Shown here: one piece after another, positions 62-7,488 of the stretch | How the letters are laid out: each line of letters opens with the position of its first letter | How positions within the stretch are numbered: position 1 is the first letter of the stretch | DNA from: a virus | Reading direction: 5' to 3' (one strand) | IMG/VR virus record: IMGVR_UViG_3300012920_000178 | Span: 1-29,156 of that record | DNA length: 29,156 bases | Translations under genes and position numbers: made by a program | Notes under the pieces: generated by a model | Told to the model about the DNA's origin: nothing | The model's input: only the letters and a program-made list of their open reading frames with translations | The model's database searches: none

Positions 62-676
62 ATGGACATACAAATATTAGATATAGAAAAAATCAAAAAC
101 TACGAGAAAAATCCTAGAATAAATGTTGATGCAGTAGAAAAAGTAAAAGAGAGCATTCAAGAGTTTGGTTTTAGGCAACCAATAGTAACAGATGAAAATA
201 TGATAATTCTGGCAGGTCATACTAGATTTAAAGCAAGTAAGGAATTAAATCTTAAAAAAGTGCCTGTTCATATAGCTAAAGATTTAAGTGAGGCACAAAA
301 AAAAGCATATAGAATTATGGACAATAAAAGTAATGAGTTCTCAGAGTGGGATTCAGGATTATTAAAATCCGAGATGATTGAGTTAGGCGATTTAGATATA
401 AATATGCAATTAACTGGTTTTGAATTAGATGAAATAAATAAATTAACAAAAAATGAATTACTTAAATTTGATGGAGATGTAAGTGAAGATTTAGAACTAG
501 AGGAAATGGGCGATTATGAACAGAGTAATGTTAAAATGATACAGCTATTTTTAAACACAGAAACTGAACCAGAGTTTAAAAAAATGGCACAGGCATTACA
601 GGAGAAGTTTGGAATAAATAATATTACTGATTTAATGTTTAAAATATTAAAAGAAAGATACGATAGTGAAGTATAA
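62..676 (+). CDS. ParB/Srx-fold (ParB N-terminal domain) protein
   Basis: A 204-residue protein. Its N-terminal ~90 residues match the ParB/sulfiredoxin fold: an N-P-R-I segment (residues 18-21), S-I-x-E-F-G-F-R-Q-P-I-V (31-42), then the core motif A-G-H-T-R-F-K-A-S (51-59), the phage form of the G-x-x-R-x-x-A nucleotide-binding box. The C-terminal half is acidic and helical and not recognised. ParB-fold proteins of phages act as CTPases, DNA-binding proteins or nucleases, often beside DNA-modifying enzymes. The ATG at 62 follows AGGA at a good distance. It overlaps the dioxygenase gene by 11 bases, so the two are probably co-translated. A role in directing or policing base modification is inference. 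It lacks the rest of a chromosome-segregation ParB. Confidence 0.85.
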   Translation: MDIQILDIEKIKNYEKNPRINVDAVEKVKESIQEFGFRQPIVTDENMIILAGHTRFKASKELNLKKVPVHIAKDLSEAQKKAYRIMDNKSNEFSEWDSGLLKSEMIELGDLDINMQLTGFELDEINKLTKNELLKFDGDVSEDLELEEMGDYEQSNVKMIQLFLNTETEPEFKKMAQALQEKFGINNITDLMFKILKERYDSEV

Positions 677-1601
677 AAGAATTAAAGTTAAAAGTGATGG
701 CAGTTTTGAAGATTGGAGAAAAAGAGCAGGAACTTTTGTTGATGAAAATGAGATAGATCAAATTATTGATTATGATTGCGATGCTTATGATGAGGAGGGT
801 AATCCATTATTTTTCTTTAGAAAAGGAGTTATCCCTTTAAATATATGTAAAACTGCATATAGTGTGCTGCGAGAGGCTGCGACAGTTACTACAAACAGAG
901 GTAACGCAGGTGGAGTAATGAGTAAAGAAGATTTGAAGTATTTTAATAATAAAGCTGTAAAACATGGACAATCAGAAAAGCAAGTCTTCAAACTAAAGAG
1001 AGATGGCACAGTATCTAACACAGTTTATGCTAAACCTGTTCATTCAGGAATAATAGGATATTTTGACAGGCAAATAAGATTTCCATATTGTAGACAAACT
1101 GCTTGGACAGAAAATAATTTTGATAAGTTTAATAATGCAAGACCTTATATAAGAAAAATATCCCAAGAATTTGAAAAAGCCTGTCCTGAAAGATTTAATG
1201 CACAAAAAAAATATGTTGATCAAACTAATGAAGACTTCTTTATAAAAGATACAGTATTTACCACAGTAACAGTAAATAAAAACTGGAGAACTGCTATTCA
1301 TACTGATGCAGGTGATTGCCACGAAGGATTAGGAAATATAGCAGTATTACAAGCAGGAAAATATGAAGGTGGACAAACTTGTTTGCCTAGATATAGATTG
1401 GGCTTTGATGTAAGAAATGGTGATGTTTGTTTTTTTAATGTTCACGAATGGCATGGAAATTTACCAATAAAATCCAATAAACCCTATGAAAGAATATCTA
1501 TAGTTTGTTATTACAGGCAAAATATGGTGAATTGTAAATCTGCACAAGAAGAATTAGAAATTATAAAAAATAGAACAGATAGAGTAGGTCTTAATAAATA
1601 A
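666..1601 (+). CDS. TET/JBP-family 2-oxoglutarate/Fe(II) dioxygenase (DNA base hydroxylase)
   Basis: A 311-residue double-stranded beta-helix oxygenase. Visible features in order are N-R-G-N-A-G-G (residues 77-83), matching the N-R-G-x-A-x-G segment of TET/JBP proteins; T-V-T-V-N-K-N-W-R-T-A (200-210); the iron motif H212-T-D214; a G-G turn (235-236); D-V-R-N-G-D (248-253); the distal histidine in H260-E-W-H263; and R276 in Y-E-R-I-S, likely the 2-oxoglutarate-binding arginine. The family oxidises the methyl group of thymine (JBP) or 5-methylcytosine (TET) in DNA. The H-T-D-A-G-D context looks more JBP-like to me, but the substrate is not proven. Translation starts at GTG (666) inside the ParB-like gene, and the stop overlaps the next ATG (TAATG). 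It is the first committed enzyme of the proposed modification operon. A protein-directed dioxygenase is less likely given the full TET/JBP motif set. Confidence 0.85.
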   Translation: MKYKRIKVKSDGSFEDWRKRAGTFVDENEIDQIIDYDCDAYDEEGNPLFFFRKGVIPLNICKTAYSVLREAATVTTNRGNAGGVMSKEDLKYFNNKAVKHGQSEKQVFKLKRDGTVSNTVYAKPVHSGIIGYFDRQIRFPYCRQTAWTENNFDKFNNARPYIRKISQEFEKACPERFNAQKKYVDQTNEDFFIKDTVFTTVTVNKNWRTAIHTDAGDCHEGLGNIAVLQAGKYEGGQTCLPRYRLGFDVRNGDVCFFNVHEWHGNLPIKSNKPYERISIVCYYRQNMVNCKSAQEELEIIKNRTDRVGLNK

Positions 1602-2254
1602 TGTGTGGTATATTTGCTATAGTTTCTAAGGATTATATTTCTTTAGAATTAGTAAAAAAAATACTTATTCAACTCAAAATTAGAGGTAAACATTCAACAG
1701 GATTATCTTGGGTAGAAAATGATGAATTGAAAGTGAATATACAGCCAGTTCCTGCAGATTTATTTACCATACCAAAATTAAAAACTAAAGTGCTGATAGG
1801 TCATACTAGATATAGCACATCTTCATTAGAATATAATCAACCAATAATGAATGAACACTTATCAGCAGTGCATAATGGAGTTATTACACAACAAGACAGC
1901 AAACATTGGGATAATCAAGAATATGTATTCAAAACAAAGAATGACAGCGAATATATATTAAAATCTTTTTTATTAAATAAACACCCATTAAAAGATTATC
2001 CCAATGCCTCAATCTCAACTTGTGTTATAGATAATAAAGATAAGAAATTAAAATTTTTTAGAAATGATAAAAGACCACTATGGTATTACAAAAGTGAAGA
2101 ATGTATTATTGCAACAAGCACTAAAGATATTTTTGAAAGATTACAATATCAAGATACAAAAAAATGTATTTCTTGCAACGAATACGAAATCTCTTTTGAA
2201 AAATTAAATATACAAGAAAAAAACATTACAGAATCAATAAGAGATTTACAATGA
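1601..2254 (+). CDS. Stand-alone class II (Ntn-type) glutamine amidotransferase
   Basis: A 217-residue glutaminase domain with no attached synthase. It begins M-C-G-I-F-A-I, so removal of Met exposes Cys2 as the N-terminal nucleophile. Further family motifs are I-R-G-K-H-S-T-G (27-34), I-G-H-T-R-Y-S-T (66-73), A-V-H-N-G-V-I (89-95), N-D-S-E (114-117) and R-P-L-W-Y-Y then A-T-S. Class II domains release ammonia from glutamine and normally pass it to a fused synthase such as GlmS, PurF or AsnB. None is fused here, so ammonia may be delivered to another operon product. Its ATG overlaps the dioxygenase stop by one base and its end overlaps the acetyltransferase by four. Amination of an activated hydroxymethyl base is a reasonable inference. 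A role in making a small-molecule donor is possible. Confidence 0.88.
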   Translation: MCGIFAIVSKDYISLELVKKILIQLKIRGKHSTGLSWVENDELKVNIQPVPADLFTIPKLKTKVLIGHTRYSTSSLEYNQPIMNEHLSAVHNGVITQQDSKHWDNQEYVFKTKNDSEYILKSFLLNKHPLKDYPNASISTCVIDNKDKKLKFFRNDKRPLWYYKSEECIIATSTKDIFERLQYQDTKKCISCNEYEISFEKLNIQEKNITESIRDLQ

Positions 2255-2880
2255 TAGCAGAATACAAAATCATTGATATGCAGGAAGTATTAAAGGTTAT
2301 TATGTTAAGCAAAGATGGTTTTAATACAAAGTTCCTCAAAGCATCACATAGTTTATGGTTTAGATTTAAAAATTATGTAAAGAATCCTCCTTATGCTATG
2401 TATATGAATAATGAATGTTGTTCTCTTATATTTGGCACACACAGTAGATTAAATAAATATGTTAATGTTTATGAGGTATGCACAGTACAAGGAAAAGAGG
2501 GTAAAGGATATGCAACCAAACTTTGGGAAAATTACATTAAGTACTCTGTAGGTCAAGGAATGAAAAGATTGAAAATTTCTTGCACACCAGATTCTTTAGG
2601 TTGGCATATCAGGAATGGTTTAGTTTTTTGGGGAGTAGATAAGCAAGGAAGTTTGAAATCAGATCAACCACTATATCCAACTAGAGAAGAACAGATAAAA
2701 TTTAGACATAAGGCGATAAATAATCCTGAAATTGCATTACCTGATATAAAAGTAATACAAAAACTAAAGCAAACTAATTTAGAAGAATTAAATCTGTCAG
2801 CTAATAAAATACAAAAGACAATCAATGCTATTGATAAATATAAATTATATTATTTAAGAGATAGTCTTTATGGATTATAG
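2251..2880 (+). CDS. GNAT-family N-acetyltransferase
   Basis: A 209-residue protein with the acetyl-CoA-binding motif A of GNAT enzymes: V-Q-G-K-E-G-K-G-Y-A-T-K-L (residues 79-91), the Q/R-x-x-G-x-G/A box, preceded by the strand V-Y-E-V-C-T (73-78) and followed by a long helix. The next segment, K-I-S-C-T-P-D-S-L-G-W-H-I-R-N-G, fits motif B with a Trp and an Asn-Gly turn. The last ~50 residues are a polar helical tail. GNAT enzymes move an acyl group from acyl-CoA to an amine. In characterised thymidine-hypermodifying phages, acetyltransferases act on amino-modified bases, so this enzyme may cap an amino group installed by the pathway (inference). The start overlaps the amidotransferase stop as ATGA, and the end overlaps the next gene by 11 bases. 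Confidence 0.82.
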   Translation: MIAEYKIIDMQEVLKVIMLSKDGFNTKFLKASHSLWFRFKNYVKNPPYAMYMNNECCSLIFGTHSRLNKYVNVYEVCTVQGKEGKGYATKLWENYIKYSVGQGMKRLKISCTPDSLGWHIRNGLVFWGVDKQGSLKSDQPLYPTREEQIKFRHKAINNPEIALPDIKVIQKLKQTNLEELNLSANKIQKTINAIDKYKLYYLRDSLYGL

Positions 2881-3832
2881 ATTAAGAGAAAATAGATTAA
2901 AAGCCTTCAAGGATTGGTACAAGTGGAGTATCAAGTACAACGATTGCGACCCTAGTATATATTTACTTAATTATTTATTTGATAGATTTGAGCATAATAC
3001 GGAACAAAAACTTTGGATATGTTTTTTGTATGGCACAACTTATTATTTACCTACAGCTTGGATAATTTGGAATGAGTTTCCAGATTTTGAGTTAGTAGAT
3101 TATGATAGATTAAAAGAATGGAATGATGCAAATTATAGTAGGCTAAGATACCAAACTGACACAAAATATAATAAAGGATATTTACCACAACAATTTTTAA
3201 GTTATAAAAAATGGATAGAATCTTTTAACCCTAGTAAATTACAGCTTGAAAAATTTAATTCGTACCCTGAAAATAATTTTGAAATAGTTTGGAGTGAAAT
3301 CAAAAATAATTTATACAAGTTTGGTAGATATAGCACTTGGTTTTATATGCAAACTTTACATAGTTGTGCAAATATCAAACTAGAACCTAACACTTTAAAA
3401 TTAAATGATTATTCTGGTAGCAAAAGTCATAGGAATGGTCTGTTATATGCTTTAGGTCAAGACTCTTTAATTAATGCAAAATTGACCAACAAACAGTATA
3501 GCATATTAGAGCATAAAAGTAAAAATATTCTACAAAATATTAATCAGTATAAGAAAAGTAATTTTTATGAGATGGAAACTGTGCTTTGTAGTTTTAAAAA
3601 AATTTTTAGAAGAACAAGAGGTAGATATTTAGGATATTATTTAGACAGACAAGCAGAGGAAATCAAGAAAGTAGAACAAGACAATTGGACTGGTATAGAC
3701 TGGAATGTTTTTTGGCAAGGCAGAGAAGAATGTTTAAATAAAAAATTATACATATCAAAAAACATAGACAAAGATAAATATAACTTTTTTTTAGATAATG
3801 GTCATTTTAATCATCAGGAGTTGGCAATATGA
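2870..3832 (+). CDS. Alpha-helical aGPT-PPlase / 5-hmdU DNA kinase helical-domain family protein
   Basis: A 320-residue, aromatic- and charge-rich, all-helical protein. Conserved-looking segments are R-L-x-A-F-K-D-W-Y-K-W (residues 9-19), D-x-D-P-S-I-Y-L-L (25-33), Y-G-T-T-Y (54-58), G-Y-L-P-Q-Q-F (103-109), F-G-R-Y-S-T-W-F (151-158), S-H-R-N-G-L (186-191), E-T-V-L-C-S-F-K-K (236-244) and R-Y-L-G-Y-Y-L-D-R (252-260). This pattern matches, from memory, the family predicted as alpha-glutamyl/putrescinyl-thymine pyrophosphorylases. Members were later assigned either to amino-acid:DNA transferases or to the helical half of 5-hydroxymethyl-dU DNA kinases. I cannot settle which clade it is. The four-base ATGA overlap with a P-loop kinase favours the kinase-partner reading. 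Confidence 0.72.
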   Translation: MDYRLRENRLKAFKDWYKWSIKYNDCDPSIYLLNYLFDRFEHNTEQKLWICFLYGTTYYLPTAWIIWNEFPDFELVDYDRLKEWNDANYSRLRYQTDTKYNKGYLPQQFLSYKKWIESFNPSKLQLEKFNSYPENNFEIVWSEIKNNLYKFGRYSTWFYMQTLHSCANIKLEPNTLKLNDYSGSKSHRNGLLYALGQDSLINAKLTNKQYSILEHKSKNILQNINQYKKSNFYEMETVLCSFKKIFRRTRGRYLGYYLDRQAEEIKKVEQDNWTGIDWNVFWQGREECLNKKLYISKNIDKDKYNFFLDNGHFNHQELAI

Positions 3833-4359
3833 TAAGTTTAGCAATAGGTGGTTTGCCTGCAGTAGGTAAATCTACATTAGTAAGAAAATTTTTCAAAGAG
3901 TATAATGCTTGGCAAAACTTCAAATTTGGTTTAGTGCAAGGACACCATAACAAAGATATTAATTTAATGATTGTGGGTAAATATGGACAAAATAAAGTAT
4001 TTGAAGGAACAGATTTACTATCAATGGCAGTTCACAACGATTTCAAAAAGTTAATACAAAAACAATATAAGTATAATATTTTATTTGAGGGCGACAGATT
4101 GTTTACATCTAGTATTTTAGAATATCTAGATCAGTGGAGCAGTTTAAATACAATCATTATCAAAAGTAATCATACAGAACAAAGACATATTGACAGACAA
4201 GACAATCAGTCAGAAAGATTTATAAAAAGTAGAAATACAAAAATAAATAACATTTGTAAATTAAATTTCAAAAGAAAAATTATTTTTCTTAATAATGACA
4301 ACCAAGAAGAATTAGATAAAAATTTTGAAACTATCAAAAAAATAATTAATATTATATAA
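3829..4359 (+). CDS. Small P-loop kinase, putative hydroxymethyl-base DNA kinase subunit
   Basis: A 176-residue P-loop protein. The Walker A is G-G-L-P-A-V-G-K-S-T at residues 7-16, right at the N-terminus. A second hydrophobic strand ends in I-L-F-E-G-D-R-L-F (84-92), the usual place of the Walker B / substrate-binding acid. A lid-like stretch D-R-Q-D-N-Q-S-E-R-F-I-K-S-R-N-T-K (122-138) carries several arginines. The size and layout are those of nucleotide or base kinases. P-loop kinases of this kind phosphorylate 5-hydroxymethyl-dU in phage DNA (family knowledge). Its ATG overlaps the helical-family gene stop by four bases, suggesting a 1:1 complex. The target (5hmU or 5hmC in DNA, or a free nucleotide) is not shown by sequence. 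Confidence 0.78.
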   Translation: MISLAIGGLPAVGKSTLVRKFFKEYNAWQNFKFGLVQGHHNKDINLMIVGKYGQNKVFEGTDLLSMAVHNDFKKLIQKQYKYNILFEGDRLFTSSILEYLDQWSSLNTIIIKSNHTEQRHIDRQDNQSERFIKSRNTKINNICKLNFKRKIIFLNNDNQEELDKNFETIKKIINII

Positions 4360-5721: not shown

Positions 5722-7488
5722 ATGATTAATGTATCAAGATTAAGAATTGGAAATAATAAAATCCAATGTCCTAAATGTAGCCACACTAGAAAAAATAAGT
5801 CAGATAAATGCTTATCAGTTACAGTTGAATCAGACCAAAGTTATGTTTGGCACTGTCATCATTGTGGAGATCAAGGTGGTTATTCTCCTAATTTTGCAAA
5901 GCAACATTACTATCCATATTCTAGTAGAAAGTTATATGCAGTGCCTAAAACAGTAGAGAAAAAACCAATGGACACTAAATATGAACAATTTTTTATAAAC
6001 AGAAAAATTAGTAATGAAACATTAAATTATTTTAAAATAACTTTTGATAAATTAAAATTCAATGGGCAAGTTAAAGAAACAGCTATATTCCCATATATTT
6101 ATGATGGCAAAGAAGTGAATTATAAATACAGAAGTATTGACAAAGAATTTAGACAAACAAAAGATGCACAAAGAACACTGTATAATATTGATTCATTAAA
6201 GCATGAAGAAACTGATGAACCATTAATAATAGTAGAGGGAGAATTAGATGTATTATCTTTTTATGAATGTGGATATAGAAAAGTAGTAAGTTTACCAGAT
6301 GGTGCACCTAAAGAGGCAAAATACAAAGAAGATGATGCAAGATTTGAGGCATTAAAAGTACACGCTGAAGAACTAGCACAGGAACAGGCAATAATCATAG
6401 CAACTGATAATGACGATGCAGGAAATGCTCTTGCATTAGAATTAGCACATAGGTTTGGTAAAGATAGATGCTCTAGACTTAATTGGGGTACTATAGGAGG
6501 TGATATAGAAATAAAAGATGCTAGTGATGCATTAGTATACGGAGCAAAAGATACAATAGAGTATTTTGTTAATAAGGCAGTTCCATATCCTATTGATGGG
6601 CTATACAAGGCTAATGATTACATTAATCAGGTAATGGATTTATATTATGGTAAGGAAGAAAAGCCTTTAACTACAGGATATAAGTTACTAGATCAGACTT
6701 ATAAATTAATGCAAGGTATATTTACAGTAGTAACAGGTATTCCTAATCATGGAAAATCTAATTTTCTAGATCAAATATTAATGAATGCTAGTAAATTACA
6801 TAATTGGAAGTTTGCTATTTTCTCACCAGAACATTCTACTCCTAGACATCTAACTAGATTGGCTGAAAAATATCTTGAATTACCATTTAATGATGGAGCT
6901 GCAAGAAAAATGTCAGAGCAAGAACTGATTACAGCTATGAGATATATAAACAATCATTTTTTCTTTTTAGAGAGTAGAGAACAAAGACCCACAATAGATT
7001 GGATATTAGATAAAGCTAGAGTTTCAGTAATTAAAAATGGAATAAATGGTATTGTAATAGACCCATATAATGAAATAGATACAGATAAAAGAGGCAAAAA
7101 AAGAGAGGACGAATACATTAAAGATATAATCGCCTCATGTAAAAGATTTGCTAGAACACACAATGTTTCAGTATGGATAGTTGCACACCCATCTAAAATG
7201 CATAGGAATAATGATGGAACATACCCTGTTCCTAGTATGTATGACATATCTGGATCAGCACATTGGCATAATATGGCAGATGTTGGTATATGTGTGCATA
7301 GGGATTTCGATAGTGGTGAAACTATTGTTTATACAAAGAAAGTAAGGGAGCAAGGACTATATGGAGAAATAGGACAGACCTCATTCCAATACAATACTTC
7401 TACAAAAGTCTATAAAGAAGTAGAGATAGATGTTGCTCCAATTAATAGTAAATCTTCAAATGAAGATAAGTGGTATAATAAAGATTAA
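5722..7488 (+). CDS. T7-like bifunctional primase-helicase
   Basis: A 588-residue replication protein of T7 gp4 type. An N-terminal zinc-binding domain has C16-P-K-C19 and C45-H-H-C48. A TOPRIM primase core follows, with I-I-V-E-G-E-L-D-V (residues 169-177) and the acidic motif A-T-D-N-D-D-A-G (227-234). The C-terminal RecA-like DnaB-family helicase has Walker A G-I-P-N-H-G-K-S (339-346), Walker B G-I-V-I-D (443-447) and a sensor-like V-A-H-P-S (487-491). It unwinds DNA as a hexameric ring at the phage replication fork and lays RNA primers. Length and domain order match the family. Its stop codon and that of the minus-strand gene share the palindrome TTAA at 7485-7488, so the genes converge with no spacer. 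The ATG lacks a Shine-Dalgarno. Confidence 0.93.
   Translation: MINVSRLRIGNNKIQCPKCSHTRKNKSDKCLSVTVESDQSYVWHCHHCGDQGGYSPNFAKQHYYPYSSRKLYAVPKTVEKKPMDTKYEQFFINRKISNETLNYFKITFDKLKFNGQVKETAIFPYIYDGKEVNYKYRSIDKEFRQTKDAQRTLYNIDSLKHEETDEPLIIVEGELDVLSFYECGYRKVVSLPDGAPKEAKYKEDDARFEALKVHAEELAQEQAIIIATDNDDAGNALALELAHRFGKDRCSRLNWGTIGGDIEIKDASDALVYGAKDTIEYFVNKAVPYPIDGLYKANDYINQVMDLYYGKEEKPLTTGYKLLDQTYKLMQGIFTVVTGIPNHGKSNFLDQILMNASKLHNWKFAIFSPEHSTPRHLTRLAEKYLELPFNDGAARKMSEQELITAMRYINNHFFFLESREQRPTIDWILDKARVSVIKNGINGIVIDPYNEIDTDKRGKKREDEYIKDIIASCKRFARTHNVSVWIVAHPSKMHRNNDGTYPVPSMYDISGSAHWHNMADVGICVHRDFDSGETIVYTKKVREQGLYGEIGQTSFQYNTSTKVYKEVEIDVAPINSKSSNEDKWYNKD

Follow-up and report, generated by a model that had tools for sequence, protein, structure and literature searches.

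The closest described relatives of the system reported here are the pathways by which phages ViI, M6 and phiW-14 hypermodify thymidine, with tailoring such as acetylation. 5-Hydroxymethyldeoxyuridine (5-hmdU) in DNA is phosphorylated by a 5-hmdU DNA kinase (PMC6449724), and the DNA of a phiW-14 mutant accumulates 5-(hydroxymethyl)-O-pyrophosphoryl-uracil (PMC5977210). We describe a six-gene segment at positions 62-4359 of virus record IMGVR_UViG_3300012920_000178, the 29,156-base stretch of DNA that was analysed and is referred to below as the window. The segment is very probably a base-hypermodification operon, and it places a free-standing class II glutamine amidotransferase (GAT) close to a member of the ADDT (amino acid:DNA transferase) family. 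The genomic evidence supports the view that this GAT is the fixed partner of one ADDT clade.

The encoded proteins are, in order, a ParB_N-domain protein, a TET/JBP dioxygenase, the GAT, a GNAT-fold acyltransferase, the ADDT and a P-loop kinase. Their reading frames, all on the + strand, overlap successively by 11, 1, 4, 11 and 4 bases, and thus agree in coordinates and in overlap (1-11 bases) with an earlier reading of this DNA, here called the sequence-only reading. The assignments of that reading to the ParB, TET/JBP, class II GAT, GNAT and P-loop kinase families were borne out by Pfam, profile or model comparisons, and the key residues of the GAT, TET and kinase, whose catalytic motifs it had pointed out, are intact and conserved among homologues. 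Profile searches, with structure prediction for the GNAT, placed the proteins, a failure of which it had named as a refutation, and the assignment of the fifth was refined. All 6 genes are under purifying selection (pN/pS 0.09-0.35, compared with loci L003 and L004), which, together with wide recurrence of the gene set, argues that the operon is not a chance arrangement.

Scans with the TET and ADDT queries gave 52 and 80 loci, respectively, and one with the GAT alignment identified at least 588 relative-encoding stretches, the best 80 being kept. Co-occurrence was counted over distinct GAT sequences having at least 2 kb of upstream and 4.5 kb of downstream sequence. TET, ADDT and kinase genes were all present at 43 of these 46 loci; the three exceptions were L050, which has a degenerate GAT and a divergent short ADDT, L123, where tblastn gave a kinase-like match, and L176, a locus fed by a hydroxymethylase. 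Dozens of IMG/VR contigs keep the gene order (ParB)-TET-GAT-GNAT-ADDT-kinase, with the TET gene sometimes relocated to the position immediately upstream of the kinase gene. Loci L077 and L079 hold a minimal core, TET-GAT-ADDT-kinase, that includes neither a GNAT nor the amidoligase found in other operons, so that the GAT is independent of both. GATs of this clade were seen solely with this ADDT clade, in TET-fed and hydroxymethylase-fed loci. Many uncultured aquatic viruses carry the gene set with exchangeable finishing enzymes, and a genome scan with the ADDT yielded only three contigs, all from metagenome-assembled genomes (MAGs).

The GAT (217 amino acids, 1601..2254; GATase_6, 3e-9) has the features of a class II N-terminal nucleophile amidotransferase: the nucleophile Cys2 directly after Met, an Arg, an Asn-Gly oxyanion pair and an Asp for glutamine. 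These residues (C2, R70, N92, G93 and D115) are invariant or nearly so, which indicates that the glutaminase site is intact. Among solved structures its profile lies closest to PurF (1.8e-10) and then to GlmS (5e-7); the C-terminal domain of those enzymes (phosphoribosyltransferase or isomerase, respectively) was not found on the 217-residue protein, which consists of the GAT domain only. An Asp-Leu-Gln (DLQ) sequence near the C-terminus (residues 215-217, window 2243-2251) is kept in ~97% of the GATs, also where the GAT gene and the next gene do not overlap, and may be a partner-docking element. The degenerate GATs of L027 and L050 have neither the Asn-Gly pair nor DLQ; at L050 a short ADDT and an FAD-dependent oxidoreductase adjoin the degenerate gene. 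No close GAT homologue was found in 50,697 annotated phage records, in which the best matches (~26-30% identity) lie in other contexts, for example in PaP3; this agrees with the remark of the sequence-only reading that the combination with a free-standing amidotransferase could not be matched to a described pathway. The cultured Arthrobacter phage Ottawa (L136) has a GAT-like gene together with three ParB genes, a TET gene and a Ploopntkinase3 gene, and no ADDT match.

Phage class II GATs are usually annotated as fructose-6-phosphate aminotransferase, and one might suppose on this basis that both GAT and GNAT serve host metabolism, as moron genes that happen to lie inside a TET-kinase-ADDT modification operon. 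We consider this very improbable, since the GAT clade was found only with one ADDT clade, in TET-fed and hydroxymethylase-fed loci alike, since the GAT has no isomerase domain and since the GNAT of L176 is fused to the ADDT. Assignment of the GAT as a GlmS moron was rejected by its genomic context.

The ADDT (320 amino acids, 2870..3832) matches PF18724 at 1e-20, and its residues E45, G55, P71, D97, K102, G152, R153, G190, E236, C240 and K243 are common to all 13 of the non-GAT ADDTs compared, ViI included; by profile and by core residues it thus belongs to the ADDT family of the thymidine hypermodification pathways. Of the name previously given to this protein, aGPT-PPlase/HMUDK-helical, the first half holds, ADDT being the former aGPT-PPlase clade 2, and the HMUDK-helical half does not. 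In a quick FastTree phylogeny the GAT-linked ADDTs form a single clade (1 change, local support 95), and ViI, L005, L026, L053 and other non-GAT ADDTs fall outside it. The ADDT matches listed in annotated phage records are ~25% identical, and a search of the PDB with the ADDT profile found no solved relative.

The P-loop kinase (176 amino acids, 3829..4359) has the Walker A sequence GGLPAVGKST, of which the Gly-Lys is invariant, and conserved GTD and EGDR motifs. Taken alone it scores above cut-off for no Pfam family; 19 of its 29 aligned relatives match Ploopntkinase3 (PF18751). Neither HMUD2 (PF18747) nor HMUDK_hel (PF18723), the described 5-hmdU DNA kinase families, is matched by the window protein, so the earlier claim stands as to a P-loop kinase and has to be amended as to its kind: the protein belongs to the PF18751 group. 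Its match in PHROGs, phrog_800, carries the misleading name of terminase small subunit.

The TET/JBP Fe(II)/2-oxoglutarate DNA-base dioxygenase (311 amino acids, 666..1601) matches PF12851 (Tet_JBP) above cut-off at 3.7e-21, and its profile matches human TET2 at 1e-5. H212 and D214 (HxD), H263 and R276, which correspond to the Fe(II) site and the 2-oxoglutarate-binding Arg, are invariant in 27 homologues. Relatives ~60% identical adjoin a TET-associated glycosyltransferase (TAGT) in L029 and L041, and in HTVC112P (L130) an FkbM-type methyltransferase gene (5902-6600) directly follows the TET gene; the latter enzyme could O-methylate a hydroxymethyl base. Here too database labels mislead: TETs in phage records are named SNF2 DNA repair protein, and the TET matches phrog_6059, named queuine tRNA-ribosyltransferase. 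The ParB_N-domain protein (204 amino acids, 62..676; PF02195 5.7e-10, phrog_620 2.3e-48) is encoded in siphovirus-like loci and is missing from T4-like and hydroxymethylase-fed loci; it is thus dispensable, and is likely to be a DNA-binding or targeting accessory outside the conserved chemical core.

The GNAT (209 amino acids, 2251..2880) was recognized weakly by Pfam (Acetyltransf_1, E 0.017, below cut-off). Its profile matched acetyltransferases in the PDB (best 1.5e-6), an AlphaFold2 model (pLDDT 96.7) gave GNATs as Foldseek matches at 1e-7, and the acyl-CoA loop Q/RxxGxG/A is present as QGKEGKGYA. It represents one of two GNAT subfamilies in these operons. Between the GAT and ADDT genes we found GNAT-A, as in the window; an amidoligase with GNAT-B; an amidoligase with a low-molecular-weight phosphatase (L056, L111 and L123); or nothing (L077 and L079). 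Of 16 amidoligase members, 12 match Amidoligase_2; the modelled protein (pLDDT 93) has a glutamine-synthetase/gamma-glutamylcysteine-ligase fold (Z ~10-11). Wherever amidoligase and GNAT occur together the GNAT is of subfamily B (29 of 29 rows, GNAT-A in 0), as would be expected if the acceptor changes. The ADDT tree implies at least 8 gains or losses of the amidoligase (11 by parsimony). L072 and L076 are instructive in this regard: their ADDT, kinase and ParB proteins are 99% identical, yet L072 carries amidoligase and GNAT-B where L076 carries GNAT-A, the homology ending inside the GAT gene and resuming at the ADDT gene. Such a pattern would be expected if tailoring steps were exchanged while the core stayed fixed. 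In L176 the fusion of ADDT and GNAT ties acylation to the ADDT product.

These observations can be assembled into a putative pathway. The TET/JBP enzyme would hydroxylate the 5-methyl group of thymine in the phage's own DNA after replication, giving 5-hydroxymethyluracil, with ParB perhaps targeting the reaction; the kinase would then phosphorylate or pyrophosphorylate the hydroxyl, creating a leaving group. The GAT would hydrolyse glutamine while the ADDT held the activated base, and the glutamine nitrogen would displace the (pyro)phosphate to give 5-aminomethyldeoxyuridine (5-aminomethyl-dU), which the GNAT would acylate, for example to 5-(acetamidomethyl)-dU. In the sister operons, the amidoligase and the other GNAT would couple an amino acid and then cap it. 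The analysis itself shows the protein families, their intact motifs, the fixed pairing of GAT and ADDT, the exchange of finishing cassettes and the interchange of TET and kinase with a hydroxymethylase and 5-hmdU kinase families; from these we infer each reaction, which base is modified, what group leaves and that ammonia is the nucleophile. The order of oxidation, phosphorylation, displacement by nitrogen and acylation, which had been put forward in the sequence-only reading, is supported by the genomic evidence; the product remains predicted. The scheme as a whole, from thymine through kinase activation and GAT-ADDT amination to a GNAT cap, is our best explanation, and we give it a chance just short of even.

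In PurF, ammonia displaces the pyrophosphate of phosphoribosyl pyrophosphate. That precedent, and the retention of the GAT in operons that have neither GNAT nor amidoligase, lead us to favour a feed of ammonia from the GAT to the ADDT, although direct amination by GAT-derived nitrogen is a step we adopt tentatively, at a little under an even chance. Several considerations count against it. Characterised ADDTs attach amino acids, displacing the activated group, so that this enzyme too may use an amino acid while the GAT acts elsewhere. Class II GAT domains normally share one chain with their synthase, and a search for a GAT-ADDT fusion found none. The charge-to-neutral changes R101N and E161Q in the ADDT, considered as a signature of ammonia use, were dropped when both were found in the ADDT of Cr30, a cultured phage with TET and ADDT and no GAT.

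Transfer of an entire amino acid by the ADDT, on the model of ViI and M6, would account for some of the same facts: the GAT would deamidate a DNA-linked glutamine, or supply ammonia for amidation of a carboxylate together with the amidoligase, and the GNAT would cap the amine. The invariant core that the ADDT has in common with the ViI enzyme fits such transfer, as does the Amidoligase_2 gene that adjoins the GAT gene in about a third of the operons; in addition, PaP3-like phages have GAT-amidoligase pairs with no ADDT nearby, and CmoY provides a precedent for amide ligation on a DNA base (PMC12783734). However, the window and most operons retain the GAT with no amidoligase, the minimal core of L077 and L079 dispenses with ligase and GNAT alike, and activation of a carboxylate for amidation is beyond a GNAT. 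Sequence comparison cannot separate amination from amino-acid transfer, and we regard the latter as possible but rather doubtful. In its fullest form the amination proposal would be a split, PurF-like DNA aminase, in which ammonia from the GAT reaches the ADDT to form 5-aminomethyl-dU behind a thymine-acting TET, with interchangeable cassettes generating a family of bases; we advance this form guardedly, as having perhaps one chance in three.

With regard to the base itself, thymine is probably the target. In L176 and L204 the GAT-ADDT-GNAT core (with an amidoligase too in L204) was seen with no TET; these loci also carry the components of the known 5-hmdU route, namely a thymidylate synthase (TS) homologue of the hydroxymethylase type, HMUD2, HMUDK_hel and a YfbR-like nucleotidase. 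Their TS homologues are nearest CMP 5-hydroxymethylase among solved structures and have Asn, in AVNVFNF, where that enzyme has Asp, a position that we take to separate dUMP from dCMP enzymes. A TET with a PF18751 kinase, and a TS homologue with the 5-hmdU kinase families, are thus interchangeable entries to the same core, which favours 5-hydroxymethyluracil. Moreover, a search of the window and of GAT-ADDT phage contigs, most of them fragments and the longest 133 kb, found no C5-methyltransferase (PF00145), nor was one found in HTVC112P, P12024L, Cr30, DLP6 or Ottawa, among which HTVC112P, P12024L and Ottawa are complete phages. The TET-fed phage contigs yielded no TS/dCMP hydroxymethylase (PF00303) above cut-off.

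If cytosine were the target instead, the TET would oxidise 5-methylcytosine to 5-hydroxymethylcytosine ahead of activation, amination and acylation. A phage TET is reported, in the title of Burke 2021 (cited in PMC11347163), to be active in C5-cytosine hypermodification. Melnitz has adjacent genes for an HhaI-type methylase, a TET and a kinase, and in L202 and L203 a C5-methylase-like domain is fused to TET and kinase. Several points weigh against a thymine target: the TET keeps the HxDxxD motif, as does the Melnitz TET beside its C5-methylase; the Asp of this motif reads the cytosine amino group in NgTet1, which would favour cytosine; and a methylase could lie off the fragmentary contigs. Against cytosine stand the failure to find PF00145 in the contigs and phages named above, the uracil-type Asn of the hydroxymethylase-fed loci, and the methylase-like domain of L202, which has VPPELL for the expected PCQ and has probably lost its catalytic Cys. 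On balance, we think cytosine unlikely. The claim that the window encodes a complete pathway accordingly depends on the base: it stands if thymine is modified and fails if cytosine is, the C5-methyltransferase not having been found.

Two further arrangements should be noted for their own sake. The fusion protein of L202 (4215-7766, - strand) and L203 is 1184 amino acids long, comprises C5-methylase-like, TET and P-loop kinase domains, and is encoded beside an ADDT on bacterial MAG contigs. In Melnitz-3 (L135), a row of genes for the HhaI-type methylase, the TET, a 427-residue protein with no Pfam match and the kinase likely represents a cytosine pathway with an unknown enzyme.

The thymine-amination scheme, if correct, would add glutamine-derived amination to the chemistry of DNA bases, and would define a route that starts on DNA, through TET, rather than on nucleotides and feeds the same downstream module. 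The gene set points to DNA bases so far unmeasured in uncultured aquatic viruses; such bases would probably be anti-restriction, and the cassette swap that nature has made between L072 and L076 provides a direct way of tying individual genes to bases. The window (32% G+C, from a virus of bacteria) also includes genes for a terminase, portal, MuF, a prohead protease, an HK97-type capsid and tail proteins.

Since annotated phage records hold no close GAT, and the ADDT matches listed in them are distant, we regard the system as a variation on known thymidine hypermodification, not as a wholly new class of chemistry; an earlier mention of GAT in neighbourhoods of this kind may exist in Iyer 2013. 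Our literature search did not find an amidotransferase or amidoligase linked to thymidine hypermodification, which is weak evidence of novelty, as Iyer 2013, Lee 2018, Lee 2022 and Burke 2021 lay outside it. With the pathways of ViI, M6 and phiW-14 the operon has in common the ADDT family and, as proposed, kinase activation of a 5-hydroxymethyl-pyrimidine in DNA and tailoring such as acetylation, and L176 and L204 join genes of that known type with GAT-ADDT. It differs in that the 5-hydroxymethyl group is proposed to be made on DNA by TET, whereas there it is made on dUMP by a TS homologue, and in its PF18751-group kinase, its added class II GAT and the amidoligase of its relatives. Phage TET systems with TAGT or an HhaI-type methylase (P12024L; Melnitz) likewise have a TET homologue; in contrast to them, the window operon has amination and acylation genes and neither a glycosyltransferase nor a C5-methylase. 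Like PurF and GlmS, the GAT has a glutaminase domain headed by Cys and keeps the Arg, Asn-Gly and Asp residues, but it is free-standing, has the conserved DLQ near its C-terminus and would work with the ADDT on DNA. PaP3/LUZ24-like operons also place a class II GAT beside COOH-NH2 ligases, although there the GAT belongs to a larger protein, is ~25% identical and has no ADDT, TET or kinase gene in its neighbourhood. Finally, the CmoX/CmoY carboxymethylcytosine-glycine system (PMC12783734) shares the principle of a phage ligase that tailors a DNA base through an amide bond, and differs in using cytosine, a carboxymethyl handle and an asparagine-synthetase-like ligase.

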